30,381 nt of DNA from a virus. How positions within the stretch are numbered: position 1 is the first letter of the stretch; each line of letters starts with the position of its first letter. The notes below the pieces were generated by a model that was given only the letters and a program-made list of their open reading frames with translations, was not told the origin of the DNA and made no database searches. The stretch covers positions 1 through 30,381 of the IMG/VR virus record IMGVR_UViG_3300027752_001667; one strand, given 5' to 3'. The position numbers and the translations under genes are program-made. Positions 12,103 through 30,381 of the stretch are shown in pieces.

Positions 12103-12147
12103 ACTATTTTTCCTTTTAAAATGCGGCATTCGTTTGCTGCATGTTCT

Positions 12148-12176: not shown

Positions 12177-12203
12177 GCATTAAAGTGGTTAAATACGTAT
12201 ATA

Positions 12204-13184
12204 ATGAATGATTTTACTTTAATACCGTTTCACAATATTGTTAAGTTTGGGCAAAAGACCATGCTTGACCAGCCATTGTTTAATGTTAGCTGGATATTAG
12301 GCCGCTTTTGTAATTACAGTTGTAGCTACTGTTGGCCGTATGCAAACACGAATGTACCGGATCATCAGGAGTTTGAAATATATACTAATGCGCTTGATGA
12401 GATAAAACGTCAGGCTAGAGATAATGGCTTTACAGAATTCCACTTTAGCTTTAGTGGTGGTGAGCCTACTGCGTATAAGAAGTTTGGTGATTTAATAGAA
12501 CACTATGCCAACGATGATGATGCTAAGTATCTAAGTTTGCATCTAACAACGAATTTAAGTCCAGGTAGTAAATGGTGGAACAGATTTATTGATGCTACAC
12601 AGCATTTACACCGTCGAAGTATTACTGCAAGTTATCATGCAGAGTTTGCTAATGAACAAGAGTTTGGAGATAAATGTCTTCAGCTTATGAAAGGAGGAGT
12701 TTATGTTACGATCAATCAAGTTATGGTTCCTGAAATGTTTGAGGAACTTTACGAACGCCTGGAACGATTTGCCACCAGAGGTATCAATGTCACTCTCAAA
12801 CCCCAATCTGACCCCACCGCATCTTTCGTTGTACATGGATACACTGAAGAACAAATCACAAGAATGCAAAGAGGATTCCCACAGCACTGGAAAGAAAAAG
12901 AAGTAATGCAAATGTACATGGAAGATGCCAAAGGCAACGACTATGGGTTGGACCAAGCTGAACGCATGAACGCTTTTGGATTTAATAAATTTAAAGATTG
13001 GACATGTAACGCAGGATATCAAAGCTGCATTATAAGCGGTGATACTGTCAAGAGAGCATATAGTTGTAGCGATAAACCATTAGGTACGCTACAGGGCGGT
13101 TTTACGCTGTTTAAGACACCAACTAAGTGTATTACCGATACATGTGTAAGTAGTGCAGACAGTAAGATACCAAAGGTAAAGTAA
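12204..13184 (+). CDS. radical SAM protein 1 (C-terminal Cys-motif subgroup)
   Basis: The 326-residue protein has the CxxxCxxC cluster site as FCNYSCSYCWPY (C36, C40, C43) and the GGEPT SAM-contact motif at 85-89, so it should bind a [4Fe-4S] cluster and cleave SAM to a 5'-deoxyadenosyl radical. The C-terminal part has DWTCNAGYQSC and then KCITDTCVSSAD. This fits a C-x4-C-x-[CS]-x2-D pattern shared with radical SAM proteins 4 and 5 and probably binds an auxiliary cluster. The ATG at 12204 is preferred over an upstream one at 12141, which would add 21 unlikely residues and overlap the promoter of the opposite gene. It starts a five-gene plus-strand operon. The substrate is unknown. Confidence 0.88.
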   Translation: MNDFTLIPFHNIVKFGQKTMLDQPLFNVSWILGRFCNYSCSYCWPYANTNVPDHQEFEIYTNALDEIKRQARDNGFTEFHFSFSGGEPTAYKKFGDLIEHYANDDDAKYLSLHLTTNLSPGSKWWNRFIDATQHLHRRSITASYHAEFANEQEFGDKCLQLMKGGVYVTINQVMVPEMFEELYERLERFATRGINVTLKPQSDPTASFVVHGYTEEQITRMQRGFPQHWKEKEVMQMYMEDAKGNDYGLDQAERMNAFGFNKFKDWTCNAGYQSCIISGDTVKRAYSCSDKPLGTLQGGFTLFKTPTKCITDTCVSSADSKIPKVK

Positions 13185-13786
13185 TGAAGATTGATATTCA
13201 AGATATAAAGTTTTGGATGGACGCTATTCGCAACAGCGAAGATAGAGACCGTACACTTGAAAGTTTTTGGGGAGGCCAGTTAAAATCAAAAACTTGGTTA
13301 ATTGAAACTTTAGAAAAGTCTAATCATGTTGCCAATGCTGAAGTAGTTATATTTGGTGGATGGAATGGAGTGTTAGCTAACATGCTGTTTAATAGTAGCA
13401 TAGGGTTTAAACATATTACAAGTGTAGACATTGATCCTGTATGCGAAACCGTTGCACTGACAATTAACAAACGTCAAGAAATGGAAGGACGTTTTATAGC
13501 AGTAACATCAGATATGTGTGATTACGAATATACAAATAAACCTTATTTTGTTATTAATACAAGTTGCGAACATATTAGTCAACAACAATATAATAAATGG
13601 TTAAGTAATGTTCCAGAAGGCTCGAAGATAATATTACAATCAAATAACTATTTTGACCTTGAAGAACATGTTAACTGTAGTGCATCATTAGAAGAATTTG
13701 CAAGAAAGTCTAAGTTAAAAGTATTACACTCAGCTGAATTAGAATTACCTAAGTACAAAAGATTTATGATTATAGGAAACCTTTAA
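13184..13786 (+). CDS. SAM-dependent methyltransferase (class I Rossmann)
   Basis: The 200-residue protein shows a class I fold pattern. VVIFGGWNGVLANMLF (54-69) is the Gly-rich SAM-binding loop, ITSVDIDPVCETVA (78-91) has the acidic residue at the end of strand 2, and YFVINTSCEHI is a plausible strand 4 motif. It should transfer a methyl group to an unknown acceptor. Both ends overlap by 1 nt (TAATG) with radical SAM proteins 1 and 2, so it is tightly co-translated with them. A matching role, methylating the product or substrate of the radical enzymes, is an inference. Confidence 0.72.
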   Translation: MKIDIQDIKFWMDAIRNSEDRDRTLESFWGGQLKSKTWLIETLEKSNHVANAEVVIFGGWNGVLANMLFNSSIGFKHITSVDIDPVCETVALTINKRQEMEGRFIAVTSDMCDYEYTNKPYFVINTSCEHISQQQYNKWLSNVPEGSKIILQSNNYFDLEEHVNCSASLEEFARKSKLKVLHSAELELPKYKRFMIIGNL

Positions 13787-14868
13787 TGTTTGACTTTAAT
13801 GATCTAAAAACTATTCACATTGAGCTAACAACAAACTGTCAAGCAAAATGTCCAATGTGTTCAAGAAACATACACAGCGGAGTAGAAAATCCGCTATTAC
13901 GAATAGTACAATGGACATTGGACGATTTTAAAACTATTATTAACAAAGAAGTATTAGACACAATTAACCGTGCGTACTTCTGTGGTAACTTTGGCGATCC
14001 ATTACTAAATGACAGTCTTATTGATATGTGCAGATATGTAAAGGACACCAGTCCTAAGACAGCAATAGGTATACATACAAACGGTAGTTTAAGGAATGCA
14101 AAATGGTGGTCAGATCTAGCAAAAGCATTACCAGAAGACCATTGCGTTTACTTTGCTCTTGACGGACTAGAAGACACTCATAAATTATATAGAGTTGGCA
14201 CAGATTGGAATCGTATTATTGAAAATGCAAAAACATTTATTGCAGCCGGAGGCCGTGCTAACTGGACATATATCAAATTCAAACACAACGAGCACCAAGT
14301 TGATGAATGTAGACAAATTGCAAAAGATTTAGGCTTCCAAGATTTCACAGTTAAAAACACATCAAGATTTTTAGTTGAGCCTAAGTATGATGTATGGGAT
14401 AAAAATAAAATTCCACTGTATAGTTTAGAAGCACCATCTGATACCGAAACACACTTTTTACCTAAAGAAGTTATTGACAATTATAAATCAGTTTTAGACG
14501 AAGCAGAAATAGATTGTCATGTACAACAAATAAAAGAAATATACATTGATGGTTCTAAAACAGTATTACCATGTTGTTGGTTAGCACAAACTCCAATGAC
14601 TCATTATGATCCTGCACATGTTTGCGAAGATGTTATAGATATGTTAAGAGGACAATATAGTAAAATGATAAGTGACTTTGGCGGTATAAGCAATCTTGAT
14701 GCAACTAAAGGAATAAAAAATATTATTGACTCTGACGTTTGGCAAAACATATGGAAAAAGAAATGGAATGAAGATAAAATGCTAATGTGTGCAAGAACAT
14801 GTGGTAAGTTTAAAACATTTAATATCTCACAACCACAAGATCAATTTATTGAAAGAGAAATGTTATGA
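13786..14868 (+). CDS. radical SAM protein 2
   Basis: The 360-residue protein has TTNCQAKCPMCSRN with the CxxxCxxC site C18, C22, C25. FCGNFGDPLL stands in place of the usual GGEP motif, as in many radical SAM/SPASM enzymes, and IGIHTNGSL follows. The C-terminal half has VLPCCW and a late MCARTCGKF, consistent with a SPASM-type auxiliary cluster region. It likely starts radical chemistry on a peptide or small-molecule substrate. It overlaps the methyltransferase (TAATG) and radical SAM protein 3 (ATGA), so it is the middle gene of the operon. It does not belong to the twitch or C-terminal Cys-motif groups of this island. Confidence 0.87.
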   Translation: MFDFNDLKTIHIELTTNCQAKCPMCSRNIHSGVENPLLRIVQWTLDDFKTIINKEVLDTINRAYFCGNFGDPLLNDSLIDMCRYVKDTSPKTAIGIHTNGSLRNAKWWSDLAKALPEDHCVYFALDGLEDTHKLYRVGTDWNRIIENAKTFIAAGGRANWTYIKFKHNEHQVDECRQIAKDLGFQDFTVKNTSRFLVEPKYDVWDKNKIPLYSLEAPSDTETHFLPKEVIDNYKSVLDEAEIDCHVQQIKEIYIDGSKTVLPCCWLAQTPMTHYDPAHVCEDVIDMLRGQYSKMISDFGGISNLDATKGIKNIIDSDVWQNIWKKKWNEDKMLMCARTCGKFKTFNISQPQDQFIEREML

Positions 14869-16271
14869 CAGATTGGCACTACGATAAAGAAGATACTAGA
14901 TTAGGCAAGTTTCAAAGAGAGCTTGAATCTGTTTCTAGTAGTACGTTTTGTGTACTTCCGTGGATACACATGGCAACTAGGCCTAACGGTGATATGCGCT
15001 TATGTTGTACTGCTAATGCTAGTGGAGCTGGAGACGATCACGAAGTTGGTCTTGTAAAAATGGAAGATGGCAAACCTGCAAACTTTGGCAAACATACTCC
15101 AATGGAAGCATGGAATAACGATTACATGAAAAGTGTACGTACAACTATGCTTAAAGGAGAGATCCCTGCAAGTTGTAAAGGATGTTTCAAAGAAGAGTCA
15201 CAAGGCATTGTTAGCAAACGTATATGGGAAAGTGCAACATGGAAAAATGATGAAGGTATTGATATACCAGAACTTATTGCACAAACACAAGAAGACGGAA
15301 CCGTGCCTGAACAATTAAAATATCTGGATCTAAGATTAGGACATACATGCAATATTAAGTGTGTAATGTGTAGCCCGCATGATTCAAGTAAGTGGGTTGC
15401 GGACCATAAAAAACTTATTCCTGTACTACAAGACCCAGAAGTTAAAAGACAAATGCAATGGGATAAGAAACTTTTTAACAACAAATGGCACGAAAAAGAT
15501 GCTTTTTGGCAAGAACTCAATGCGCAAATACCTTACCTTAAACAAGTATATTTTGCTGGAGGAGAGCCGTTAATGATCAAAGAGCATAAACGCTTTCTTA
15601 AAGAAATTATTACACAGGGCTATGCTGACAAAATTTTAGTAAGGTACAACTCCAATGGTTTGCTAGTTGACAACGAGTTAATTGATATATGGAGTAAGTT
15701 TAAGAAAGTTAAATTTGCAGTAAGTATCGACTCGTATAAAGAGCGTGACGAATACATCAGATTTCCAACTAACTTTAAACAAGTTGAAAGCACATTACAT
15801 TTACTAGATAACACTCCCGACAACATTCATGTTAGCATTGCAACAGCAGTACAAATATTCAATATAAAAACTATACCCGAATTTATTAAATGGAAAGTTA
15901 ATAGTAATTTTAAAAAGATGAATGTTGGTTTGATTGATGGACATATTATGGGAGGCGGCCTTTTAAATGCACACTTAGTACACATACCAACATTTTTAAA
16001 TATTACAATACTGCCTGAAAAAGACAAGCAAGAAGTACGTGAAAAGTTCGCTGAACTAAAACAATGGTTATGGAACAACTTTACACAAGACGATGAGTTT
16101 TGGAAACACAATCCTAAAGGTTGGCGCCAATGGGAAGGGTTACTAAAGCACATGGATAGTTGTGATAACAGTCATATGTTACCTGGCTTTAAAGAGTATG
16201 TAAATAAATTAGATGCAATCCGTGGCTTGAATGCCGCATCAGTATTTCCGGAGTTATCACATTTACTATGA
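14865..16271 (+). CDS. radical SAM protein 3 with N-terminal twitch/SPASM-like domain
   Basis: The 468-residue protein has an N-terminal Cys region: FCVLPWIHMATRPNGDMRLCC (C29, C47, C48) and ASCKGCFKE (C104, C107), typical of the half-SPASM or twitch domain that carries an auxiliary Fe-S cluster. The radical SAM core follows, with HTCNIKCVMCSPHDSSKW (C162, C166, C169) and VYFAGGEPLM. This inverted order (twitch before core) is a form I associate with uncultured phage proteins. Radical SAM protein 6 on the other strand has the same layout and motifs, so the two are paralogues. It overlaps both neighbours by ATGA. Substrate unknown. Confidence 0.88.
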   Translation: MTDWHYDKEDTRLGKFQRELESVSSSTFCVLPWIHMATRPNGDMRLCCTANASGAGDDHEVGLVKMEDGKPANFGKHTPMEAWNNDYMKSVRTTMLKGEIPASCKGCFKEESQGIVSKRIWESATWKNDEGIDIPELIAQTQEDGTVPEQLKYLDLRLGHTCNIKCVMCSPHDSSKWVADHKKLIPVLQDPEVKRQMQWDKKLFNNKWHEKDAFWQELNAQIPYLKQVYFAGGEPLMIKEHKRFLKEIITQGYADKILVRYNSNGLLVDNELIDIWSKFKKVKFAVSIDSYKERDEYIRFPTNFKQVESTLHLLDNTPDNIHVSIATAVQIFNIKTIPEFIKWKVNSNFKKMNVGLIDGHIMGGGLLNAHLVHIPTFLNITILPEKDKQEVREKFAELKQWLWNNFTQDDEFWKHNPKGWRQWEGLLKHMDSCDNSHMLPGFKEYVNKLDAIRGLNAASVFPELSHLL

Positions 16272-17278
16272 CAGATATTATTAAGATTGTTAATACTAGA
16301 GAAGAAGATTATATAGCAATTACATACTTCCCTACAGATATTTGTAATTTTGATTGCACGTATTGTTTTCCAGGAAGTCACCCATCTAAATATAGATACA
16401 GAAAAGACACAGACTTTGTCATTGACAACTTTAAAAAATTATTTGCTTTTTATAAATTAAAATTTAATAAATCTAAAATATATTTTGAAATTGCCGGTGG
16501 TGGCGAACCAACACTATGGCCGGATTTATTAAAATTTTGCAAAGAAATTAAAAAAGTTCCAGACTTATCTATAGCACTAGTATGCAACGGATCAAGAACA
16601 CTTCGTTGGTGGGACACTATTATTCCCTATATTGACGAAGTTATGTTAAGTTACCATAACGAATTTACAAAAACAGATCATTACATCAATGTAGCAGATT
16701 TGATTTGGGAGAATGGTAAGAAAGTAAATGCTAATGTATTAATGGATTATCCTAATTGGGATAAGTGTATCGATGCAATTGAACAAATGAAACAAAGTAA
16801 ATACAACTGGTTTATAAATGCAAAAGAAGTAGTAACTGCTCCAGGGCACGATGTAGAATCATATACTTTAGAACAAAAAGAATATTTAAAACAACCTATT
16901 AAGCGTTTGCCTAATTCAAGTTATATACTAAACAATCTACAAGATTATAGAATGGTCGAAAGTGTTGCAATACTTAATAACGACAAAGTAGTTACAGCAG
17001 GTCCTAATTATTACTTAATAAACTCTATTAATAATTTTAAAGGATGGGCATGTAACGTAATATCTGAAAGAATAACTATTTTTCCTTCTGGCAAAATAAC
17101 AGGATCGTGTAACATAGACTTTGATTATGATTTAAATTTATACTCGAACACGTTAGAAAAAGACTTAAAACAAGTTACATTACCTTATGTAACATGTACT
17201 ATGAATTGTTGTGCTTGTCTAAGTGATAATCACATTACAAAATCAAAGCCAGCTATTATTCCTGCAGTACCTTTGTAA
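16268..17278 (+). CDS. radical SAM protein 4 (C-terminal Cys-motif subgroup)
   Basis: The 336-residue protein has DICNFDCTYCFPG (C26, C30, C33) and IAGGGEPTLWP, so the cluster and SAM sites are intact. The C-terminus repeats the subgroup pattern: GWACNV, then TCTMNCCACLSDNHITK, matching C-x4-C-x-[CS]-x2-D. It is the last gene of the plus-strand operon and ends inside the convergent radical SAM protein 5 (23-nt overlap). The coding strand is very A/T-rich even for this window. It probably acts on a substrate similar to that of proteins 1 and 5; which one is unknown. Confidence 0.87.
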   Translation: MTDIIKIVNTREEDYIAITYFPTDICNFDCTYCFPGSHPSKYRYRKDTDFVIDNFKKLFAFYKLKFNKSKIYFEIAGGGEPTLWPDLLKFCKEIKKVPDLSIALVCNGSRTLRWWDTIIPYIDEVMLSYHNEFTKTDHYINVADLIWENGKKVNANVLMDYPNWDKCIDAIEQMKQSKYNWFINAKEVVTAPGHDVESYTLEQKEYLKQPIKRLPNSSYILNNLQDYRMVESVAILNNDKVVTAGPNYYLINSINNFKGWACNVISERITIFPSGKITGSCNIDFDYDLNLYSNTLEKDLKQVTLPYVTCTMNCCACLSDNHITKSKPAIIPAVPL

Positions 17279-18170
17279 GAGGTATATCAGCAGCACACGT
17301 ACACCATTTACGAGTACAAGTTATCCATTCTTCAGGCTGCTCAAAACTGCCATCATAGATGTTACCTATACTTCCACCTACTCTACAAGTAGCACGATGT
17401 ACATCGCCGTCCCAATTAATCATTAGGCTTTCAATTCCTGCACTGCATTTCCAACCTTTAAATTGATTTAGGTGTTGTTTAATAACATCGTTGGCATGCA
17501 TCTTAGTTGTGTCGTCAATAATTACATTAGGATTTACGGTAGACGTTCTGTCTAATATCCATTCTAAATCTTTACCATCATATTTTAAATCATCAAATAC
17601 ATCATGGTCTCCTTCTGTCCATCGTATTCGTCTTACAACAAACGGAATATTATGGCTGTCAAACACCGTAGCACATTCTTTTACTCTATCCATAAATTGA
17701 TGGTGTGCCATTAAGTTAACTTGAAATGGCTTTTGTGTATACGCACCTTCATTTAATTGAGAAAACAATAATACTGTTTCTGCGCATCGTCTCCAATTTT
17801 CAGTATCTTCTACGTGCAAACTAAACACAATGTGACTTACATTAAGATCGTTGTAGTACTGGGCTGTGCGGGTTCCGTTGGTAGTTACGTTAACCCACTC
17901 AAGCTGTTGACCTTGCATTGCATGATCGACTAGTTCTACAAACTGTGGATGAACACACGGCTCACCGCCTGTGAAACTTACACGTATTGGCTTGCCAATT
18001 TCCCCTAGTGCATCAACTGCATCTAACAATACTTTAATATTTGTGTGCGGGCTAGTGTTGTCATGAATTGCTGCTGGGCAATAACTACAATCTAAGTTAC
18101 AGCGTTTACCTAAATTCCATTCAACATGAACGCTATCTTGTCGATCATAACTAGAAGCTATTTTAAACAT
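17256..18170 (-). CDS. radical SAM protein 5 (C-terminal Cys-motif subgroup)
   Basis: From the ATG at 18170 the protein has 304 residues; a TTG three codons earlier is possible but less likely. KRCNLDCSYCPAA gives C24, C28, C31, and FTGGEPCVHP is the SAM-contact motif. The tail has GWKCSAGIES and then TCTRKWCTCAADIPLTK, the same C-x4-C-x-[CS]-x2-D signature as proteins 1 and 4. It overlaps protein 6 by 8 nt at its start and protein 4 by 23 nt at its end, so it completes a minus-strand set (QueC-like, 6, 5) facing the plus-strand set. Confidence 0.87.
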   Translation of the reverse strand: MFKIASSYDRQDSVHVEWNLGKRCNLDCSYCPAAIHDNTSPHTNIKVLLDAVDALGEIGKPIRVSFTGGEPCVHPQFVELVDHAMQGQQLEWVNVTTNGTRTAQYYNDLNVSHIVFSLHVEDTENWRRCAETVLLFSQLNEGAYTQKPFQVNLMAHHQFMDRVKECATVFDSHNIPFVVRRIRWTEGDHDVFDDLKYDGKDLEWILDRTSTVNPNVIIDDTTKMHANDVIKQHLNQFKGWKCSAGIESLMINWDGDVHRATCRVGGSIGNIYDGSFEQPEEWITCTRKWCTCAADIPLTKVLQE

Positions 18171-19434
18171 ACGGCGCAAACTCTGGATTTATAACTTCAA
18201 ACGGTCCTTGCTTACGACTTTTGTCTAAGTTACGATTAAAGTTAATACAGTCTTGCCATAACTCGTCGTGTAAATCGTCTGCTTGTAAGAAGTTAATATT
18301 ATCCTGAATCTGCGTTAACGTAAAATCTTTAATTCTGCTATCACTTTTTACAAGTTTGTAATCTAAAACTTTTTCTTTCATTGCTTCTAGTTTATCAATT
18401 ACTTGTAGTTTTAGTTCATTAGGAATAACCTGTGCTGATAACGCCTTAGGATATTGTACTCTATGACTGTAGAATATAATTTCCATGTTCTCCATAAAGT
18501 ACTCAATTACTTTATCAATTTGCATTATATTGTTTGACTGTACAGTAAATGCTCCAACAATTCTACTAACTGTAGGAATTGTTTTCATAATTTTAATATT
18601 TTCTTCAATCTCAATAAACTTGCCATTGCCTCTAATGTATTCATAGATATCGTGTATACCGTCTATGCTTACATTAACAGCAACACTTTTAAACTTAGGC
18701 CAATATTCGTGTACAGTTCGACCGCCCTTAATACCAAGTGTAGTTCCGTTAGTAGCATACTTTAATTCAATGTTCTCTCCATACGGTGCTAACATATCTA
18801 AAATTTTATAATGTTGAGGATCCATTAATGGTTCGCCGCCTGCAAACTCTACTCGTCTAAAGTAGGGCAATAGTTTCTTAAAACTACTCCACCAATTATC
18901 TGTATCTTCAAATGCATCAATATATTGACCTGGCTTTTTAACCAGTGCATTAACTGTTGGAATGAGAAAGTTATTTTCTTTTTTGTAAAATTCTGTAACT
19001 TGATCCCAGTCTTTCCATTGTGTGCTATCTAACGGGTTACACATACGACATTTAAGATTACATAAGTTGTTTAACTTTACTTCCATTGTAGGTATTTCAA
19101 ATGGCATTGAATAATCATCTTCTAAGGCGTCTAATGCATTGGGATATAAATTAATCCTAGCTTCTGGTATGACACCTTCTATATGTCGCTGACGTAAACT
19201 TTGAACTCCTTGGTCTTCTAACCTAAAACAAGGTGCGCATACTTCAGGTCGTTCGTCATTCATTACCTGCCGGCGTACCTCTTTAATCTTGTCTCCGTTC
19301 CAAATTTCTTCTAGTGTGTTATCTTTGATATCGCCAATAGGAGCACTGCGGCAACAAATCTTAATTGCGCCATCTTCTCTAGTTGCTAATCCTGTAAAAG
19401 GATGCATACAAAAAGTTTTACTGTTGCATGGCAT
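18163..19434 (-). CDS. radical SAM protein 6 with N-terminal twitch/SPASM-like domain
   Basis: With the ATG at 19434 it has 423 residues. That start has a GGGGAG site 6 nt upstream and keeps the overlap with the QueC-like gene to 17 nt; an ATG at 19491 with a closely spaced AGGA would add 19 residues. The N-terminal twitch-type Cys are C9 in TFCMHPF, C27/C28 in KICC and C66/C69 in EVCAPCF. The core has NNLCNLKCRMCNPLDSTQW (C125, C129, C132) and VEFAGGEPLMD. These motifs line up one by one with radical SAM protein 3, so the pair arose by duplication or parallel acquisition. It likely carries two Fe-S clusters. Confidence 0.87.
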   Translation of the reverse strand: MPCNSKTFCMHPFTGLATREDGAIKICCRSAPIGDIKDNTLEEIWNGDKIKEVRRQVMNDERPEVCAPCFRLEDQGVQSLRQRHIEGVIPEARINLYPNALDALEDDYSMPFEIPTMEVKLNNLCNLKCRMCNPLDSTQWKDWDQVTEFYKKENNFLIPTVNALVKKPGQYIDAFEDTDNWWSSFKKLLPYFRRVEFAGGEPLMDPQHYKILDMLAPYGENIELKYATNGTTLGIKGGRTVHEYWPKFKSVAVNVSIDGIHDIYEYIRGNGKFIEIEENIKIMKTIPTVSRIVGAFTVQSNNIMQIDKVIEYFMENMEIIFYSHRVQYPKALSAQVIPNELKLQVIDKLEAMKEKVLDYKLVKSDSRIKDFTLTQIQDNINFLQADDLHDELWQDCINFNRNLDKSRKQGPFEVINPEFAPYV

Positions 19435-22132: not shown

Positions 22133-22656
22133 AAAACTTAGGCGTATGTGATACAATAGATTGGAACAACGTTATTGCACAATGTGCTAGTGTTGATCCT
22201 GAGTTTGTAGGTCCAAGCCACAAACGTGGAGATACAATACCTGGACTAGATCCTATACTAGATATGTGGGAACAAGCAGGATATAAAACTGTACACGAAG
22301 GCGGCACAGCAGGATGGGATATGTTTATGCCCGGCAAGCAATTTGATCAAAGTGTAGCAGATGCATGGAATAAATTTTATGGATTAAAGTGTGAAAACAT
22401 TTGGATAAGCAGAGTATGGCCCGGACGGTTTGCTCCTATACATTGGGACGTACACGATGACGAAGTTAACTTGCCCGACTGCCCAAGATATCATAGCCAT
22501 ATAGGAGAACCGCAATGGGGCCACATTTTTATTGCAGATGAAGAAATATTTTATAACCAGCCACAAGGAACAACTTGGGAATGGACTGATAGAAAGATAT
22601 GGCACGCCGGAACTAATTGCGGGCTAGTGCCTAAGTATATATGGAACGCATGGTAA
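22129..22656 (+). CDS. 2OG-Fe(II) oxygenase-like protein 3
   Basis: The 175-residue protein carries the same signature as its neighbour: RVWPGRFAPIHWDVHD (H105, D107), QWGHIFIADEE, then WEWTDRKIWHAGTNCG (H159). The two share short blocks in the same order but differ in most residues, suggesting an old duplication with divergent substrates. It overlaps protein 2 by ATGA and the next gene by TAATG, so translation is coupled. It probably uses Fe(II), 2-oxoglutarate and O2 to hydroxylate an unknown target. Confidence 0.65.
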   Translation: MKNLGVCDTIDWNNVIAQCASVDPEFVGPSHKRGDTIPGLDPILDMWEQAGYKTVHEGGTAGWDMFMPGKQFDQSVADAWNKFYGLKCENIWISRVWPGRFAPIHWDVHDDEVNLPDCPRYHSHIGEPQWGHIFIADEEIFYNQPQGTTWEWTDRKIWHAGTNCGLVPKYIWNAW

Positions 22657-23255
22657 TGGAAAATATTTTATATTTAGATCATCCATGGATCATGGTTTAC
22701 AAAGATGTGTTAGACGATAAAACTTGTGATAAGTTTGTTAAAAAGTATAATGAGTTAGGAATGAATCCAAACGCAGGATTAGAATCTAGAGAACAAACCT
22801 ACGGACAGATTACAGAAGAAGTAGAACAGCGTAGTATTAGTTGGGACACTTCACCTGAAGATAGACAGTTTTTTAGAGATAAAATTTGCGAAGTATTAAA
22901 GATACCTGACAGCCATATTGAAGCTGGTGACATTTATAGATATGATACCGGGCAGTACTTTGGCCTACATCATGACTTTCCGTACACACCTGAAGATATT
23001 GCGTACTATGCCAAAGGCGGCGATAGAAAAGCAACTGCAATCTTTTGGTTGAATGACGGATACGATGGTGGAGAATGCAAGTTTCCTGAATTAGCCGTTA
23101 GTGTTGTACCTATGAAAGGCGGCATGATGTATTTTGAATACGACTACGATGATGAAATAATCAATAAAATGACAATACACGAAGGCATGCCAATTACCAA
23201 AGGCGCAAAATGGATAGCAGCTTTCTTTATTGCCAACGGTCCGAGGGTAGAATGA
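22656..23255 (+). CDS. prolyl-4-hydroxylase-like 2OG-Fe(II) oxygenase
   Basis: With the ATG at 22656 (TAATG with the previous gene; an ATG 15 nt earlier also exists) the protein has 199 residues. It follows the P4H pattern well: YRYDTGQYFGLHHDFPY with H105 and D107, TAIFWLNDGYDGGECKFPEL, and MTIHEGMPITKGAKWIAAFF with H175 as third ligand and K185 for 2-oxoglutarate. This is the most canonical oxygenase of the island. Related proteins are common in marine T4-like phages; targets may be peptidyl-proline or free amino acids. It is followed by two SDR genes with ATGA overlap. Confidence 0.85.
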   Translation: MENILYLDHPWIMVYKDVLDDKTCDKFVKKYNELGMNPNAGLESREQTYGQITEEVEQRSISWDTSPEDRQFFRDKICEVLKIPDSHIEAGDIYRYDTGQYFGLHHDFPYTPEDIAYYAKGGDRKATAIFWLNDGYDGGECKFPELAVSVVPMKGGMMYFEYDYDDEIINKMTIHEGMPITKGAKWIAAFFIANGPRVE

Positions 23256-23710
23256 AAGTTGTAGTATTAGGCGGATCAAAAGGTTTAGGGCAACTCCTTT
23301 CAGCATATTTCAAACTTAAAAATTCTGATGTAAAAGAGTTTAGTAAAAACAGTTCGTTTGATGAAGTAATTGCAGTTGCTAAAACTTGTGATGTTTTTGT
23401 TTGTAACGCTTACGCAGACGGCACGCAAATAAACTATATAGAAACACTAAAAGACTATAACATCAAAATTATAGTAAGTGGTAGTATTGCAGCAGACTCG
23501 CCTGATCCTAATATGCCTGTGTATAGTCTAGACAAAAAGAACCTGCGTGAAAGAGTAATTGAATTATCACAATCTCGTAATACATGTAAAGCAAGTATAC
23601 TGTTATTAACACTTACAGGAACAGCAGTAAACGAATATCAAACAATACACAATACATTAGACTATTGGATGGAAAATGACACAATTAACGAAATTAGGTT
23701 TACAATATAA
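23252..23710 (+). CDS. small SDR-type NAD(P)-binding protein 1
   Basis: The ATG at 23252 overlaps the preceding stop (ATGA) and begins with MKVVVLGGSKGLGQLL, a Rossmann Gly-motif (G7-G13). The 152-residue protein is short for the short-chain dehydrogenase/reductase family (about 250) but keeps VCNAYA (NAG-like, 51-54), VSGSIA (S78) and Y91-x3-K95, the Ser, Tyr and Lys of the catalytic centre. It could reduce or oxidise a carbonyl or hydroxyl made by the oxygenases. Lack of the usual C-terminal substrate lobe suggests it may work as a heterodimer with the next gene (inference). Confidence 0.7.
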   Translation: MKVVVLGGSKGLGQLLSAYFKLKNSDVKEFSKNSSFDEVIAVAKTCDVFVCNAYADGTQINYIETLKDYNIKIIVSGSIAADSPDPNMPVYSLDKKNLRERVIELSQSRNTCKASILLLTLTGTAVNEYQTIHNTLDYWMENDTINEIRFTI

Positions 23711-24310
23711 ATGACTAAAAAAATAGTAATCACAGGACACACTAGCGGTATTGGTAAAGCAATTTTTGATAAGTTTACAGAAGTAAGCTGTCATGAGATT
23801 ATAGGTATGAGTCGTAGCAACGGATACGATATTGAAAAAGATTTTGATAAAGTTGTAGAAGAAGCCGCAGGAGCAGAAATTTTTATTAACAATGCTTATA
23901 GAGATCAGCAGCAGTTAAAATTATTTAATGCACTCAAAGATAAAGTAGATATGATGGTTGTTATGGGCAGTGTAAGCAGACTTTACCCCGAGCTTATTCC
24001 AACAGACTATGTACAAGATAAACAAGAACTTGCAGAGGCGTGCCGATTAGAAAGTATTAATCCTGATGGTATTCCTGTTTTGCATTTAGACTTAGGCTTT
24101 CTCGAAGGAACTACAGTAAGTGGAGATGATCCTGCAGAATTTTTAAGTGACTCTACTACTCCTTTAGAAGATGTAGTAGATACTATTATCTTTTGGGCAG
24201 GCAAGCCTACTATTAGACAAGTTGAATTTCGTTGGAAGCTGACAGATCATCTACGTGCAGAACTAGAGCGTATTAATCCTAACTTAGACCCATCTCGGAT
24301 ACAGTTCTAA
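23711..24310 (+). CDS. SDR-type NAD(P)-binding protein 2
   Basis: The ATG follows the stop of SDR 1 without a gap. The 199-residue protein has ITGHTSGIGKAIF (the TGxxxGIG motif), INNAY (NNAG-like, 60-63), VMGSVSR with catalytic-type Ser, and Y100-x3-K104 in TDYVQDKQE. This is the classical SDR set in a short version. Similarity to SDR 1 in motif order and size suggests a tandem paralogue pair. The role is probably redox of a sugar, amino acid or cofactor intermediate. Its last 27 nt overlap the convergent GNAT-like gene. Confidence 0.8.
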   Translation: MTKKIVITGHTSGIGKAIFDKFTEVSCHEIIGMSRSNGYDIEKDFDKVVEEAAGAEIFINNAYRDQQQLKLFNALKDKVDMMVVMGSVSRLYPELIPTDYVQDKQELAEACRLESINPDGIPVLHLDLGFLEGTTVSGDDPAEFLSDSTTPLEDVVDTIIFWAGKPTIRQVEFRWKLTDHLRAELERINPNLDPSRIQF

Positions 24311-24844
24311 ATTTTCATAAAATTTGTCAGGATGTATTTCCCACACAGTTTGATCAGTATGCCTGTAATGCACTTCTTTAATTTTACTTACCACACCTAT
24401 CTTAGCAAGTGTAGGAAAATATATAGAGTGTACTAGACGCTGACTCCCTTCTTTACTTTTGTTTGAAGTAGCAAACACTCTACCTTTATCTTTTGTCCAT
24501 TCTAAACAAACAGGAAGCATAAATTGATCTGTAAGATTTTGATGTTCAGCACAAAGTCGATTTGCTTTTACTAATCCGTTGTGCGGCCTTGCTTCGCCAA
24601 ATGTACATACTCTTGTAAGTATCCTATATGAGTTAGGACCCATAACATCATCAAACGAGTGTGCTGCTACACTGCCTATTGCTTTATCACCGTTATACAG
24701 TATCCAAGCATTCCACTCACGTTCGTTATGAAAACAATCAATCATAGCCTTTTGACTAGCATTATTGACGAAGCCTCTGCGAGTTGCCTCACTATAAAAT
24801 TCAGACAAGTCTAAGTCTTCATTCCATTCTATCATTTTATGCAT
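24284..24844 (-). CDS. GNAT-like acetyltransferase, tentative
   Basis: The 186-residue protein has a GNAT-like central run: WNAWILYNGDKAIGSVAAHSF (about 43-63), then YRILTRVCTFGEARP, which looks like strands 2-4 of the fold. The Gly-rich acetyl-CoA P-loop (R/QxxGxG/A) is not clear, though LAKIGVVSKI could be related. The assignment is therefore weak. The ATG at 24844 overlaps the kinase-like B gene by 8 nt; an ATG at 24835 is equally possible. It forms a two-gene minus-strand set with kinase-like B between two oxygenase blocks. Function unknown. Confidence 0.42.
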   Translation of the reverse strand: MHKMIEWNEDLDLSEFYSEATRRGFVNNASQKAMIDCFHNEREWNAWILYNGDKAIGSVAAHSFDDVMGPNSYRILTRVCTFGEARPHNGLVKANRLCAEHQNLTDQFMLPVCLEWTKDKGRVFATSNKSKEGSQRLVHSIYFPTLAKIGVVSKIKEVHYRHTDQTVWEIHPDKFYENLELYPRWV

Positions 24845-25529
24845 ATATTTGTTTTGCCTTTTCCATTACATCGTCACGAAAGTTAGTTTTAAAACTTTCA
24901 AACGCCAGCTGTTGTATAGCATTATGATTAGTAGGTGCATCGACATCAATGCCCATTGTTTCCATTTTAGGAAATAAGTCTGCTTGTCTATCTTCACTGA
25001 TATGACTCATTACACTACGTAAGCTAATATTAACATCATTATTATCATATGTAAAGAAGTAATTCATACTTTTTAGTTTACCGTCTACAATAAAATAACT
25101 GCTAGGGTGCATACTGTATTTGTATAATCCTAAGTCTTTGTGTGCTTGAATAATTTCTAACATTTGTATGTCCCAGTCTGGTAGTACAGATGTATAATCA
25201 TTTGTATTACAGCCCGCTAATTCCCACATGTCTGGTCCGTCAATTTCTAAATATATTTTACGCCATTCGTAATCTACAGTATATGCAGGTATGTGCTGAG
25301 GATACTCTTTACGCATTATACTAAGGAATTTTATTTCACGTTCAAACTTTTCATCCATTAAATTAGGATCAACTACTTGATTGTGTCCTTTGTGATAGTC
25401 AGTATCATTGTAGTACCATTGACAAAACTGTTTCTTGTTATTGTCAACAAGACTGGTGTATATTAAGTTATTGCGGCAAAGGCCTTTTCCGGGAACGTTG
25501 TTGTAGTAATATTCAAAGTTAGTGTTCAT
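24837..25529 (-). CDS. kinase-like protein B
   Basis: The 230-residue protein is a paralogue of kinase-like protein A. It has a substrate-lobe start with FCQWYYNDTDYHKGHN, helix-C-like KFEREIKFLSIM (about 62-73), hinge-like IYLEIDGPDMWE, and a catalytic-loop-like HKDLGLYKYSMHPSSYFI followed by LKSMNYFFTYD. In A the last block reads RAIDWYG; here the Asp is replaced by Asn (MNYF), so metal binding may be impaired and B may be a pseudokinase. It shares the minus strand with the GNAT-like gene and is divergent from oxygenase 4 with only 26 nt between the starts. The fold call is moderate, the activity unknown. Confidence 0.42.
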   Translation of the reverse strand: MNTNFEYYYNNVPGKGLCRNNLIYTSLVDNNKKQFCQWYYNDTDYHKGHNQVVDPNLMDEKFEREIKFLSIMRKEYPQHIPAYTVDYEWRKIYLEIDGPDMWELAGCNTNDYTSVLPDWDIQMLEIIQAHKDLGLYKYSMHPSSYFIVDGKLKSMNYFFTYDNNDVNISLRSVMSHISEDRQADLFPKMETMGIDVDAPTNHNAIQQLAFESFKTNFRDDVMEKAKQIYA

Positions 25530-25555
25530 GCTGTTATTTAACGATAAGTATTACT

Positions 25556-26371
25556 ATGATTAGAGGAATTGGCGGTAAGCCTTATATTAACTTAGACCCA
25601 TACTTAGACATCACAGGTTTCAAAAATTTGCATCCGGAGATTGCTAAAGGATTTGCATTAGCAAGAGATTATGCTAAAGAAGGCACCTGGATGGCACCTG
25701 GTTTTGATTGGAAAGATTCTAGTTACATATTAGATTGGAAACCAATTTATAAAGCTATGGAAGAATACGAAGCATTGCCTGATGACGATCCTATTAAAGT
25801 ACAAGGACAACTAATACTTCCTAAAGATTTTGGCGACTACAAACAGCGTAATATTTTTACTCGCTATCTTAAAGCTACTATGGGAGCAAATGATCCTTAC
25901 ATTTATTACTTTTTATGGAATGAAGGAGACTGGAATGAGCGTAATGCAGAAAGACAATTAACTGAAGAGTCAAAGTATTTTCCGGGTGTAGTTAACTGGG
26001 TGCAAAGTATGCAAAATGAAGGTATTATTGATCGTATTGGTAGAGTTATATTTTTCCATTGCGACCATAATGGCAAAGCATTTGAACACAGAGACCTGGA
26101 CGCTAATAATGGAGTACACGATGATAAGCAATACAGTCCGCACAATAATGAATTCATACATATACGCTATCGCACAAAGAGAGGATTTTATATTTGGGAT
26201 CCCGAAAGTGAAAACAAACAGTACCTCAACTGCAACGCAGCATTTTGGAACGACCAAGATTGGCATGGCGGTGAAAGTTCTAAAGAAGTAGAATACGGCT
26301 TACGTATTGATTGCAAATTTTCAAATGCATTTCGCAAACAGCTAGGCATTGACACACTGGATCATTATTAA
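25556..26371 (+). CDS. 2OG-Fe(II) oxygenase-like protein 4
   Basis: The 271-residue protein has an N-terminal region without recognisable motifs, then an oxygenase-like half. VIFFHCDHNGKAFEHRDLD has H178 and D180, and DWHGGE has H237 as a plausible third ligand, with R250 in YGLRID as a possible 2-oxoglutarate contact. Spacing fits a double-stranded beta-helix. It is longer than its relatives in the island. It starts 26 nt from the divergent kinase-like B gene, and the next gene begins 2 nt after its stop. Substrate unknown. Confidence 0.6.
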   Translation: MIRGIGGKPYINLDPYLDITGFKNLHPEIAKGFALARDYAKEGTWMAPGFDWKDSSYILDWKPIYKAMEEYEALPDDDPIKVQGQLILPKDFGDYKQRNIFTRYLKATMGANDPYIYYFLWNEGDWNERNAERQLTEESKYFPGVVNWVQSMQNEGIIDRIGRVIFFHCDHNGKAFEHRDLDANNGVHDDKQYSPHNNEFIHIRYRTKRGFYIWDPESENKQYLNCNAAFWNDQDWHGGESSKEVEYGLRIDCKFSNAFRKQLGIDTLDHY

Positions 26372-26373
26372 AT

Positions 26374-26874
26374 ATGGATTGGGTAGGTAACTTTAATAAC
26401 ACACTAGCTCCTGAAATAAATGATCTTGTAATGATCTCGACTGGTCAAGCTCGACCTGGTGATTGGGAACCTATTAATGCTGTTGAAGAAGATCTTTGGA
26501 AACAAGGTCAAGAAACATTTAACTTTGATAAAATAATGTGGTATGTATATGAACAGCAAGACTTACAAATTGATCTAAAGTTTCCTTGGACAACTGGAAA
26601 CTGTCATTGGTGGATCACTAAACTACTACCTGGGCAAATGATGCCTATGCATACAGATCCACACACTCACGATGATGGCACATGCAAACGATATTGGGTA
26701 CCTTTACAAGATTATATTCCTGGGCATGTTTTTATATACAATGATGTAATGGTATCAGATTACAAAAGAGGTGATGTGTTTCAATACTCACATTCGCAAG
26801 ACGAACACGGTGCAGCAAATCTTTCTTTTGTACCAAGGATAGTGCTACAAGTTACTGAGTACACCAATCATTAA
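26374..26874 (+). CDS. 2OG-Fe(II) oxygenase-like protein 5
   Basis: The 166-residue protein has LLPGQMMPMHTDPHTHD (H93, D95), a central WVPLQDYIPGHVFIYND, and FQYSHSQDEHGAANLS with H145, in the same order and spacing as oxygenases 2 and 3. The Pro-Gly turn two to six residues before H-x-D is shared by all three. It therefore belongs to the same small phage 2OG family related to aspartyl/asparaginyl hydroxylases. The ATG follows the previous stop by 2 nt without a clear ribosome-binding site, so coupling is likely. Its end overlaps the 449-residue gene by 23 nt. Confidence 0.62.
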   Translation: MDWVGNFNNTLAPEINDLVMISTGQARPGDWEPINAVEEDLWKQGQETFNFDKIMWYVYEQQDLQIDLKFPWTTGNCHWWITKLLPGQMMPMHTDPHTHDDGTCKRYWVPLQDYIPGHVFIYNDVMVSDYKRGDVFQYSHSQDEHGAANLSFVPRIVLQVTEYTNH

Positions 26875-28201
26875 TATGCCAAGTAGGGCATTTAAATTCA
26901 TCAATATTATATACAAGAATATCTTTTGCAGTCCCATATAAGTTATAGGGTGTAAACGCTTCTGAAGTTCTTGAGCTAAAGTTTATTTGTGCGTCTGGCA
27001 TTTCTTGCTTTAAATAATTGATTAAATGGTTCTCTTTTTGCAGTTTATACTTAATGTTGTATAGTGTGTTAGTACCTTCATAGCAAAAAATGTTGCTTAT
27101 GTTGTACAATGTATACTTTATGTAACGTTTTTCTAGGTAATCACATATATTAACATGCTCTCCTATGTTGTATAGTGTATTAGTGCCTTCATAGCAAAAA
27201 ATGTTGCTTATGTTGTACAATGTATACTTTATGTAACGTTTTTCCAGGTAATCACATATATTAACATGCTCTCCTAGTAAATCCCATTTAACAAATTTGT
27301 ATGTCACGTTAGGCAAACGTTCAACATTTTCTTTCCAGTAAGCTAAACTGCTTTCGTTGTAATCGTAAAGTACAACAGTTACAGGCTTAGTTTTGTGTAT
27401 CCATGATTTATACATTTCACCACTTGCTGGAGCAACTACTTGTCTTAGATTTTCGTAAATCCTATTATGATGTTCAGTGTGATCTGTATGTATATGCTCG
27501 GTCCTGCAAAAATTATCTTTGTAATATACATACTCCAACTGCTTGTAAAAGTCAGTAGGACTTTCAGGATAAAGATGTTTTTTATTGTTTCTAATATCTT
27601 CAGGAAATGCTTTAACATAAAACCCTTTTTTTAATGCAACACTAATAATATTCCATCCGTGACATTTATGATTGTATTTGGTGTTTCCAGACGGCGTATC
27701 TAGTTTAATCCAATGAGGAGTATAGCTGTCATGAAAGTTATTAGTTGAACGTTGTACTGCTAGTTGTGTGTGCTGCTCACCAAGTTGCTGTTGTCCAATT
27801 TTTGGACACCCTAGGTCTTTATAGTTTGTTAGGTTAACCAAAAAACACTGTTGGTGCAGTTCGTAATATGCATCGCCTCTATCCAAAATATGCCCTTTAA
27901 CTAGATAGTCAGGTTGGCATTCTTTGAGCAGAGCATCTATTGCTGTTGTGCCATTAGTAAATTCAGTACCCGTAGACAGCATACAAGCGTGTTTAAAGCG
28001 TTTCATTGCTTCCTGTAGTAGTAAGTCCCCACTTGTGCCTTGCAGCACTGTATAGCCCTTAGAGAAGAGGTTCTGTAGTGTAAAGTCAGCTTGGTTCTTA
28101 GTAAGCTCTTTGATCCACGGATCAGTTATTTTGGCAGTTGTATCTAAAATACAAAATACTAGTTCGTTGTTGCCATTAGGATTATATTCAACTATGTTCA
28201 T
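26852..28201 (-). CDS. 449-residue protein of unknown function with an internal duplication
   Basis: I do not recognise a family. The N-terminal half has a beta-alpha order with segments such as LVFCILDTTAKITD, GYTVLQGTSGDLLLQEAM and PDYLVKGHILDRGDAYYELH. From about residue 255 a Rossmann-like stretch appears: VVAPASGEMYKSW, then VTVVLYDYNESSLAYWKEN, reminiscent of a nucleotide- or SAM-binding domain. Residues of about 309-382 are two copies of a 37-residue unit (see repeat). The ATG overlaps the stop of radical SAM protein 7 (ATGA), and it is the last gene of a minus-strand set led by radical SAM proteins 8 and 7. A scaffold or substrate-modifying partner of those enzymes is possible (inference). 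Confidence 0.7.
   Translation of the reverse strand: MNIVEYNPNGNNELVFCILDTTAKITDPWIKELTKNQADFTLQNLFSKGYTVLQGTSGDLLLQEAMKRFKHACMLSTGTEFTNGTTAIDALLKECQPDYLVKGHILDRGDAYYELHQQCFLVNLTNYKDLGCPKIGQQQLGEQHTQLAVQRSTNNFHDSYTPHWIKLDTPSGNTKYNHKCHGWNIISVALKKGFYVKAFPEDIRNNKKHLYPESPTDFYKQLEYVYYKDNFCRTEHIHTDHTEHHNRIYENLRQVVAPASGEMYKSWIHKTKPVTVVLYDYNESSLAYWKENVERLPNVTYKFVKWDLLGEHVNICDYLEKRYIKYTLYNISNIFCYEGTNTLYNIGEHVNICDYLEKRYIKYTLYNISNIFCYEGTNTLYNIKYKLQKENHLINYLKQEMPDAQINFSSRTSEAFTPYNLYGTAKDILVYNIDEFKCPTWHINDWCTQ
27054..27275. repeat. 111-bp tandem duplication, two copies
   Basis: Two direct copies of 111 bp (27054-27164 and 27165-27275) lie inside the 449-residue gene. They differ at three bases, all silent, so both encode the same 37 residues. 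The frame is kept. Confidence 0.95.
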
Positions 28202-29031
28202 ACTTGTAACACTTTAATTTTCTTAATTTCAGATTCTATTGGGAGATCAATTTTTTTACTCCAATTGCATAATTGGCATTGAGATTGCGATTGTAATCTA
28301 GTATCACTCCACTCTATAAATTCTTCAGGACTACTGCCTAAATCTTGCTGTGCAATATCTTTATACGGTTGTTCTATTTGAAACTGTCTAGCTAACTTTG
28401 GAAGTAAGGCTTGTTGTTGACATCTGTAAAATCGTCCGTCTAGTAAATGCATACATTCTTTTGTAGGGCATAAACTAAACTGCTCGTCTATGTTACTAAG
28501 TGTTGGCCATGTGATTGATCGTTTGTCTTTTACCATATGCGGCAATTTATAGAATTGCCATGATTCAGATAATTCACCAACAACTACATTATCCTTTGTT
28601 AGTGTGTAATGTATGTCTGCATCAGTATGACGGTTGTCAACAAACTTAGTGTATGTGATATTGTTATCACGTAACCAAGATTTTATATTTGTTAAATCAG
28701 TTTGTGAATGTGCCGATATTTCTATTTGCCAGTTATCAAACCATCTTAAATTTAGTTTATCTAAATGCCTACCATTAGTTACAATCCACTTCTTACTGTT
28801 GGGCCACATATATTCAACCCATTCTGTCCACTTGCCTAACTTAGGGTGCAATGTTGCTTCGCCTCCTAAAATAAATATTTCATCAAACGTAACTTTATCT
28901 TTAAGTACTTCTACAGATGAATCAATCTCAAAGTGACCTCCCCAGTTCAAGTTGTTGTAAGTAAAACAACTTTCACATGCTAGATCACAAGTGTGTGAAA
29001 TATATACTGTAAGTTCAGGAAGGCGAAGCAT
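28198..29031 (-). CDS. radical SAM protein 7
   Basis: The 277-residue protein has SHTCDLACESCFTYN with C15, C19 and C22 and ILGGEATLHPK (GGEA at 56-59), so it should bind the radical [4Fe-4S] cluster. The C-terminal Cys (SLCPTKECMH, FYRCQQQ, CQLCNWSKK) suggest a SPASM-like auxiliary site. It is the shortest radical SAM of the island and lacks features of QueE. The ATG immediately follows the stop of protein 8, and its own stop overlaps the 449-residue gene (ATGA). It probably works with protein 8 on one substrate. Confidence 0.83.
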   Translation of the reverse strand: MLRLPELTVYISHTCDLACESCFTYNNLNWGGHFEIDSSVEVLKDKVTFDEIFILGGEATLHPKLGKWTEWVEYMWPNSKKWIVTNGRHLDKLNLRWFDNWQIEISAHSQTDLTNIKSWLRDNNITYTKFVDNRHTDADIHYTLTKDNVVVGELSESWQFYKLPHMVKDKRSITWPTLSNIDEQFSLCPTKECMHLLDGRFYRCQQQALLPKLARQFQIEQPYKDIAQQDLGSSPEEFIEWSDTRLQSQSQCQLCNWSKKIDLPIESEIKKIKVLQV

Positions 29032-30039
29032 CTATATCCTATTTTTTGCGTACTTGGCTAGTACGTTTTGTTCGTTTTGTTTTACTTTATCAACATTCTT
29101 AGGACACATATTACAGGCATCGATGTGTGTATAATGTTGATCATAAAAATTACGTATGGCGTTTGGATCGTTAAGTGTTAGGTCAACAGGCTTGTAGTTT
29201 ATATATGGTTGCCAATCTTTGTCATTTAGTTGTCCAGTCTTTGTTAGCACATTAATTAAAGTTCCTAATGCTCCACACTTGTATACTTTTTTGTTATACA
29301 ACATTGCACAGAAACAGCTAGGGCAGCCTTGCCAGTATGACGATTTTGGATCACCTTCGTTGAACGGTCTCAACTTTCCTAGTGAATCTTTGTTATGTAT
29401 CTTTTGAAAGCTATGAGCTTCCATATAATATATTCCACTCTTGTTCTTTGCATCCATCCAGGCTGCTTCGTTAGGAGATAGCTCATTTAAATCTATACCT
29501 TTACGGTTATTAAACTCTTCCCAAGCAGCATCACCGCCACCTAAGTTCATTATAGTTTTCCACCAAGTAGAAGTTACTTCTAATTTAGGTATACCTACAC
29601 GGGCTGCAAGTGTATATACATTTTCTAACATCTGATTATGTATTATTAGAACATCCCATGCTGCAACATGACTACATATCTGCATCCACACTTTATATTC
29701 TTTAATTAATTCTACAGCAAAATCCATTTGCTTTGGCTTGTTTAGTGCAATACCATTAGTAGGAAAGAAAATAACTTTATCTTTTTCTTTTTCTAAACTT
29801 CGGATATGTTTAATTATTGCAAGAACTGTATCTTTATATAAGAATGGTTCACCTCCTAGCACACTCCAACATTCTACATTGAATTGTTCACTAGCAAGTG
29901 TAACACTTTCTAATATGTTTTCAAGGGTAGGATCAAACTCACCATTACGTATGTAATCACTTCTAGTATCACAGTGAGCGCAGGCCAGTTGGCATTTGTT
30001 ACCATAGAACACATCTAATATTTTAATACTATTGTTCAT
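29032..30039 (-). CDS. radical SAM protein 8
   Basis: With the ATG at 30039 (AGGAAACAG ribosome-binding site; a start 24 nt upstream is possible but lacks one) it has 335 residues. GNKCQLACAHCDTRSDY gives C16, C20, C23, and CWSVLGGEPFLYKD is the SAM-contact motif. C-terminal Cys at GCPSCFCAML, VYKCGALG and DACNMCPKN look like a SPASM-type region for further Fe-S clusters. It overlaps the oxygenase gene by 11 nt. It heads the pair 8-7 followed by the 449-residue protein. Confidence 0.86.
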   Translation of the reverse strand: MNNSIKILDVFYGNKCQLACAHCDTRSDYIRNGEFDPTLENILESVTLASEQFNVECWSVLGGEPFLYKDTVLAIIKHIRSLEKEKDKVIFFPTNGIALNKPKQMDFAVELIKEYKVWMQICSHVAAWDVLIIHNQMLENVYTLAARVGIPKLEVTSTWWKTIMNLGGGDAAWEEFNNRKGIDLNELSPNEAAWMDAKNKSGIYYMEAHSFQKIHNKDSLGKLRPFNEGDPKSSYWQGCPSCFCAMLYNKKVYKCGALGTLINVLTKTGQLNDKDWQPYINYKPVDLTLNDPNAIRNFYDQHYTHIDACNMCPKNVDKVKQNEQNVLAKYAKNRI

Positions 30040-30381
30040 TCTGTTTCCTATAACTTCTTGCAATAAGTTCTACAAATTCATCTTTACGTTTACCTGGTAT
30101 ACCATGTGCTATTAAGTGTATTCTAGGTGTGTTAGAATTGTTAACAAAACTATGTACGTTTCTTATATTAATTATAAAAGCCTTTCCTTCTTTAAAAGGA
30201 ACAGTACCGTGTCCTTCAAGTGTCATATGACAGTCGTCTGGGTGAATAATTGCTATGTTAATAGGTACTCCAAACTCAAGCATATCTAAATTTTCTTCAC
30301 CTGGTAACTTTCCAGGAGCATCACTGTGCGGACTTATTTTGCCGCCAGGTTCAAGTTGCATAAAACGTATTCTTCTATAGC
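30029..30381 (-). CDS. aspartyl/asparaginyl hydroxylase-like 2OG-Fe(II) oxygenase 6, partial
   Basis: The frame is open to the right edge, so the N-terminus is outside the window; the ATG at 30361 is internal because the frame before it (YRRIRF) already fits the family. Visible motifs are LEPGGKISPHSDAP (H-x-D), VPINIAIIHPDDC, GKAFIINIRNVHSFVNNS (distal His) and PRIHLIAHG (Arg). This set is typical of the aspartyl/asparaginyl beta-hydroxylase family and is more canonical than oxygenases 2-5. It sits directly upstream of radical SAM protein 8 with an 11-nt overlap, so the oxygenase and radical SAM genes are one operon. Confidence 0.8.
   Translation of the reverse strand, partial: YRRIRFMQLEPGGKISPHSDAPGKLPGEENLDMLEFGVPINIAIIHPDDCHMTLEGHGTVPFKEGKAFIINIRNVHSFVNNSNTPRIHLIAHGIPGKRKDEFVELIARSYRKQNEQ

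Follow-up and report, generated by a model that had tools for sequence, protein, structure and literature searches.

A 30.4-kb viral genome fragment (IMG/VR record IMGVR_UViG_3300027752_001667, positions 1-30,381; here called the window) carries at positions 12186-30379 an island of 23 genes that encode, among others, eight radical S-adenosylmethionine (SAM) proteins and seven proteins of the 2-oxoglutarate (2OG) oxygenase type. The island recurs as a conserved unit in related phages, and its genes are under purifying selection. We favour, with about even confidence, the reading that it encodes a pathway tailoring a surface glycan or an aminosugar or cyclitol, a substrate class suggested by the gene context of analogous and related clusters.

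Conservation of the island in T4-like phages

The island is almost gapless, as the initial annotation had stated: it is 99.8% coding, no gap exceeds 26 bp, and the gene direction alternates in six blocks. A relative, G009, continues it beyond the right end of the window, making it larger than first annotated. No precursor peptide was found inside the island block, which is filled by enzyme genes, confirming an earlier observation. Searching for the T4-type late promoter TATAAATA yielded zero exact copies and only scattered one-mismatch sites, and a tRNA search for host assignment found none.

Relatives were collected by two seed searches that covered close relatives only, with the best 80 retained per seed, so that the resulting frequencies are biased. 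They lie on 122 distinct IMG/VR contigs, with at least five island families in 121 and at least ten of the 23 in 89, and among island-bearing contigs the gene order is largely kept. Two further seeds, searched under the same limits, gave the same picture: all 80 loci found with O5 contained at least three other island families and 78 at least five; with R1, at least three others were present in 42 of the 43 loci of at least 10 kb, and none was solitary. The objection, raised with the initial annotation, that homologues might occur singly in related phages is thus not borne out. Core families in the 89 contigs were R3 (88), R5 and R6 (87 each), O1 (84) and the QueC-like ATPase (82). Module order and orientation differ in distant relatives, in several of which ThyX and g11908 remain next to R1; g11908 (window 11908-12138), which adjoins R1 and ThyX, is a small lysine-rich conserved protein with 54-75% identity in distant relatives. 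The samples containing the island were marine and other aquatic, lakes among them.

In comparison with two close relatives, the ratio of nonsynonymous to synonymous substitution rates (dN/dS) was ~0.02-0.3 where computable, R6 and O7 giving no usable value; the island genes are under purifying selection. Coding density, purifying selection and conserved order together rule out an assembly of these genes by chance. The conserved unit lends good support to a dedicated and co-inherited enzyme pathway, as the initial annotation had suggested, and the substrate class tilts towards sugars or surface glycans.

Judged from their gene content, the island carriers are T4-like phages. The left part of the window encodes a gp9/10-like baseplate or tail protein (T4_gp9_10_N above cut-off), tail-fibre-like proteins, ThyX, UvdE and QueD, and the gp46-type gene of the relative G001 has its nearest matches in the jumbo T4-like phages Phosso, PA5oct and Atu_ph07 (44-49% identity).

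Table 1 Genes of the island and two further genes of the window, with the evidence for each.
Gene	Description	Position	Strand	Evidence
A-type carrier	Fe-S carrier, ErpA/IscA-like	3134..3472	+	TIGR00049 over cut-off
KdsA	Kdo-8-phosphate synthase	6957..7739	-	TIGR01362 and NF003543 over cut-off
R1	radical-SAM, auxiliary-cluster Cys	12186..13184	+	PF04055 over cut-off; CxxxCxxC 65/65
MT	methyltransferase-like	13184..13786	+	32% to phage Mosig 'putative methyltransferase'; no Pfam match
R2	radical-SAM	13786..14868	+	PF04055 over cut-off; Cys invariant
R3	radical-SAM, N-terminal twitch family	14865..16271	+	NF033640, 398 bits
R4	radical-SAM	16268..17278	+	PF04055; Cys invariant
R5	radical-SAM	17256..18179	-	PF04055; Cys invariant 72/72
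R6	radical-SAM, N-terminal twitch family	18163..19491	-	NF033640, 320 bits; hhalign 100% to R3
QueC-like	PP-loop ATPase	19418..20158	-	PHROG QueC at C-terminal part; invariant SGGxDS and four Cys
O1	oxygenase-type, beta-hydroxylase-like	20132..20875	+	7v4f profile, E=1e-14; HxD...H 40/40
K1	kinase-fold protein	20872..21561	+	AlphaFold2 and Foldseek; conserved in relatives
O2	oxygenase-type	21548..22132	+	HxD...H 48/48; homologous to O3, O6
O3	oxygenase-type	22129..22656	+	HxD...H 53/53; homologous to O2
O4	2OG-Fe(II) oxygenase	22641..23255	+	PF13640 over cut-off
S1	short SDR-like	23210..23710	+	paralogue of S2, hhalign 100%
S2	short SDR-like	23711..24310	+	weak adh_short and Epimerase matches
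	conserved protein, earlier called GNAT-like	24284..24844	-	conserved family
K2	K1 homologue	24837..25529	-	hhalign 99.4% to K1
O5	oxygenase, 2OG-oxygenase fold	25556..26371	+	AlphaFold2/Foldseek; HxD...H 39/39
O6	oxygenase-type	26374..26874	+	homologous to O2/O3; PHROG 2297 with O4
X	conserved protein	26852..28201	-	often adjoins O7 or R5; conserved
R7	radical-SAM, below Pfam cut-off	28198..29031	-	PF04055 E=7e-5; Cys 6/6
R8	radical-SAM	29032..30063	-	PF04055 over cut-off; Cys 16/16
O7	Asp/Arg hydroxylase-type, partial	30029..30379	-	PF05118 over cut-off

Enzymes encoded in the island

All eight radical-SAM proteins of the initial annotation were recovered with PF04055, seven above the curated cut-off and R7 weakly, below it; R7 keeps its CxxxCxxC motif and extra cysteines in all six sequences compared. 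The motif cysteines are invariant across relatives in each of the eight families (up to 74 sequences per family), and further cysteines, of the auxiliary-cluster type, are retained in all eight in alignments of relatives. R3 and its paralogue R6 belong to NCBIfam NF033640 (N-terminal twitch, N_Twi_rSAM), far above the cut-off of 170 bits.

For the seven oxygenase-like proteins, the HxD...H triad is invariant in relatives, and family or fold support came by several routes, namely Pfam (2OG-FeII_Oxy_3 for O4, Asp_Arg_Hydrox for O7), a PDB profile search (O1), a structure model (O5) and profile or PHROG links (O2, O3 and O6). The nearest solved relative of O1, the beta-hydroxylase 7v4f, is described under nucleoside-antibiotic biosynthesis. 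O2 and O3 form one family (hhalign 100%), each related to O6 (98.5-98.8%); a PDB profile search with O2 gave nothing significant. The AlphaFold2 model of O5 (predicted local distance difference test, pLDDT, 88) has the 2OG-oxygenase fold, and its Foldseek matches are all 2OG oxygenases, including prolyl hydroxylases, T7H and ALKBH5. O7 is truncated by the window end and measures ~220 amino acids in a relative. By triad and fold or family matches, O1-O7 are of the 2OG-Fe(II) oxygenase type, with a predicted 2OG-dependent activity. The CxxxCxxC and HxD...H residues appear intact, contrary to the possibility considered earlier that most of the catalytic sites might be broken.

The other assignments of the initial annotation fared unevenly. 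The methyltransferase is backed by its similarity to the Mosig protein and has no Pfam match. The QueC-like ATPase has the expected SGGxDS motif and cysteines and a partial PHROG match, but no Pfam or NCBIfam match, and a PDB profile search gave nothing significant; since it failed to match a curated profile, it is described as QueC-like and not assigned to the QueC family. For the two kinase-like proteins, the fold was upheld: the K1 model (pLDDT 72) resembles the Ark1, Rio2 and Bud32 folds, with modest template modelling scores of 0.35-0.45 against PDB entries and nothing significant in a PDB profile search, while the fold of K2 is deduced only from its homology to K1. Inspection by eye revealed no HxD-type aspartate at YKLTMYPHCHY, and the ID-W-Y-G residues are kept in K1 and lost in K2; without a recognisable catalytic aspartate, both may be binding proteins. 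The call of two short-chain dehydrogenases/reductases (SDRs) stands, weakly, through S2 and its paralogue. The GNAT-like call found no support: this protein had no Pfam, PHROG or PDB match.

Gene X, the ErpA-like carrier, KdsA and the continuation past the window had been missed in the initial annotation. X has no match in Pfam or PDB profile searches. It contains a 111-bp in-frame tandem duplication (window 27075-27244, 59 bp exact) that is missing from the near-identical contigs L009 and L010, so that either the strains differ here or the duplication arose in assembly.

Gene context and larger islands

KdsA and a GT8-like glycosyltransferase, encoded like the ErpA-like Fe-S carrier in the left part of the window, form the sugar context of the window, both outside the island. 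It is plausible that the phage's own A-type carrier supplies Fe-S clusters to the island enzymes. KdsA is doubtful as a part of the pathway, only 9 of 19 records having it. Adjoining UvdE is a gene for a HAD protein (window 4461-5165) with a strong match to PF03332, the eukaryotic-type phosphomannomutase, which is unusual for a phage.

Beyond O7, G009 encodes two more radical-SAM proteins, a weakly matched AMP-ligase-like protein, another oxygenase-type protein and an amidinotransferase (L198:5707-6783). The latter scored below the PF02274 cut-off and was identified by a PDB search as closest to StrB1, an inosamine-phosphate amidinotransferase (E=2.5e-90). StrB1-like amidinotransferase genes were seen at 41 viral loci (L364-L404), usually with the radical-SAM gene R10 and often with the oxygenase gene O8. 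They are a separate module, found without the rest of the island at 17 of 37 longer loci. G009 also has KdsA and a CMP-Kdo synthetase-type cytidylyltransferase (PF02348, L198:14708-15397).

The block reaches ~40 kb in G001 and in a 108-kb contig (L152 / L181-L186) with ~20 radical-SAM genes that is filed under the GTDB metagenome-assembled genome 'Gammaproteobacteria MED685', and up to 19 PF04055 matches occur per virus record. Extra genes in the larger islands encode UDP-glucose dehydrogenase, an epimerase, a carbamoyltransferase, TauD, a weak sulfotransferase match and a nucleosidase. A bacterial origin of the MED685 contig, one of the closest cellular matches, was rejected because it is phage-like, with the same flanking architecture and ThyX; it appears to be a T4-like phage placed in the genome collection by a binning error. 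Likewise, a 3.5-kb 'Thermoplasmata' contig that might have been a cellular relative is probably a stray phage fragment. Within its radical-SAM island, the MED685 phage encodes a PNP_UDP_1 nucleosidase (L181:16365-16922), which might clear 5'-deoxyadenosine or S-adenosylhomocysteine from the radical-SAM and methyltransferase enzymes; none of 15 virus records searched had it, and a role as recycler of radical-SAM by-products was not upheld.

Possible products and comparison with known systems

We infer that these enzymes serve a single pathway from which the phage benefits. In the favoured scheme, 2OG oxygenases and radical-SAM enzymes that carry auxiliary Fe-S clusters would attack the unreactive C-H bonds of a substrate one after another, and the new groups would then be oxidised or decorated by the reductase-like S1 and S2, MT, the QueC-like ATPase and the kinase-fold proteins; in relatives, amidino-, carbamoyl- and perhaps sulfotransferases would add further decoration. 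The substrate would most likely be a sugar, aminosugar or cyclitol unit ending on a surface glycan, either of the host (lipopolysaccharide, LPS, or capsule) or of the virion, and the effect would be an altered receptor chemistry or protection of the phage.

Sugars and surface glycans are favoured because analogues and relatives sit among sugar and LPS genes, as the comparison of the phages Mosig and K566, the larger islands and bacterial relatives indicates, and because bacterial N_Twi genes lie near GT2 glycosyltransferase genes. The latter were found within 8 kb of R3/R6 relatives in 6 of 12 bacterial genomes versus 1.2 expected (P ~4e-4, a rough value), in a test that was small, used the matches listed only and left a bias towards accessory islands uncontrolled. 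The StrB1-like amidinotransferase of the right-hand module and the KdsA and GT8-like genes of the window likewise speak for sugars. Besides these limits, it weighs against a sugar substrate that no glycosyltransferase was assigned within the window's island, that the occurrence of KdsA is patchy and that radical-SAM enzymes with auxiliary clusters act on peptides too. The degrees of confidence given here and below belong to readings that do not exclude one another.

The retention of auxiliary-cluster cysteines in all eight radical-SAM proteins, which is common in peptide-modifying enzymes, could mean that the enzymes modify a host protein or a structural protein of the phage, for instance a tail fibre, in the manner of protein hydroxylation or of the maturation of ribosomally synthesized and post-translationally modified peptides. 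Weak NCBIfam similarity to peptide maturases, the Asp/Arg-hydroxylase type of O7, the resemblance of O5 to prolyl hydroxylases among others and the tail-fibre-like genes nearby agree with this; however, the block holds no precursor peptide, protease or transporter, and the analogues have a sugar context, and we regard a protein target as unlikely. A diffusible small molecule, for example a guanidino-cyclitol or an aminoglycoside-like compound, that infected cells would produce and set free on lysing is improbable: the StrB1-like amidinotransferase, the carbamoyltransferase, the many C-H oxidising enzymes and the antibiotic context of 7v4f would fit, but no transporter or resistance gene was seen, and the amidinotransferase module lies outside the window and is not always present.

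More improbable still is a hypermodification of DNA or tRNA bases, by which the phage would evade host nucleases or tune translation. It would accommodate the QueC-like ATPase and the QueD encoded in the window, a kinase fold whose closest matches are Bud32 and the RNA kinase Ark1, and the T7H and ALKBH5 matches of O5, but known signature genes of DNA modification (TGT/DpdA, TET/JBP, hydroxymethyl-dU kinase) were not named in the scans made, and R3/R6 relatives associate with glycosyltransferases. Finally, the island might be a dock of partly independent cassettes, each operon with a different target, that are swapped between phages; this would be compatible with several of the other readings and seems unlikely. 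Synonymous divergence (dS) between the window and one and the same close relative ranges from 0.02 (S2) to 2.3 (R1), and this strong unevenness between genes shows a separate exchange of cassettes; the variable module order in distant relatives and the cassette gain reported for pelagimyophage islands (PMC7029224) also favour this reading. Against such a dock, the core families stay together in nearly all of the 89 contigs.

Returning to surface decoration, we tentatively suggest a broader form of it, which we hold to be possible but below even confidence: a widespread lineage with modular C-H functionalisation, using from 8 to ~20 radical-SAM enzymes and comparable numbers of oxygenases, would make a chemically new sugar or cyclitol decoration, possibly guanidinylated, on the surface of the cell or the virion. 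If true, this would be perhaps the largest viral radical-SAM biosynthetic system, and its glycan chemistry would form a class not seen before. Phages usually carry auxiliary enzymes singly; some phages devote 18-45 kb to oxidative and radical chemistry. The product would reveal new enzymology and probably new surface chemistry in the contest between phage and bacterium, and would help to show what the uncharacterised N_Twi family of radical-SAM proteins does.

Near-DNA and protein searches of a collection of 50,697 cultured-phage records found no close copy of the island, nor of R3, R6, the QueC-like protein, K1, O2, O3 or O5; the near-DNA search gave no match in cultured phages, nor did K1, O5 and the QueC-like protein match anything there at the protein level. 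In the open-access literature searched, we found no description of an ordered radical-SAM/oxygenase island or of a function for it. The radical-SAM richness of T4-like viruses has been known since 2017/2020, and the ordered island is apparently undescribed. The T4-like environmental genome TARA_ERS488813_N000010 (183 kb; 2017, PMC5332604) has 12 radical-SAM genes and, like the window, an A-type carrier; compared by description only, it was published in terms of Fe-S metabolism and not as an ordered island. Radical-SAM genes have also been noted as enriched in Tasman Sea phages (PMC7150976), and the gain of radical-SAM cassettes has been reported for the pelagimyophage host recognition cluster (2020, PMC7029224). 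A position from VrlC to gp14 and the presence of tail fibres mark this cluster; tail-fibre-like genes are found near the window's island, and BLASTP with the Mosig VrlC protein gave no match in either G001 or the phage contig of MED685.

Bacterial NF033640 members are 23-32% identical to R3/R6, uncharacterised in function and mostly present in one to a few copies per genome (up to ten), whereas R3 and R6 stand beside oxygenases in a phage island. Among cultured phages, Pelagibacter phage Mosig EXVC030M is a partial analogue, with MT, R2-like and R4-like genes at 55-75 kb beside VrlC, together with genes for an ArnB-type aminotransferase, an epimerase, a carbamoyltransferase, dioxygenases and GT8-like proteins. 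This is a variable island of a T4-like marine phage that combines homologues of the window's MT, R2 and R4 with dioxygenases and sugar genes; the stretch examined encodes only two CxxxCxxC proteins versus eight in the window. Vibrio jumbo phage K566 (OZ196521) has, in a cluster at 161-171 kb, six NF033640 matches, three over the cut-off, in genes interleaved with GT8/GT4 glycosyltransferase genes beside LpxC and PagP. These proteins belong to the same family as R3/R6, at 22-24% identity; in contrast to the window's island, glycosyltransferases are interspersed and no oxygenase set was recognised. Together, the partial versions in the cultured phages Mosig and K566 make the function of the island testable.

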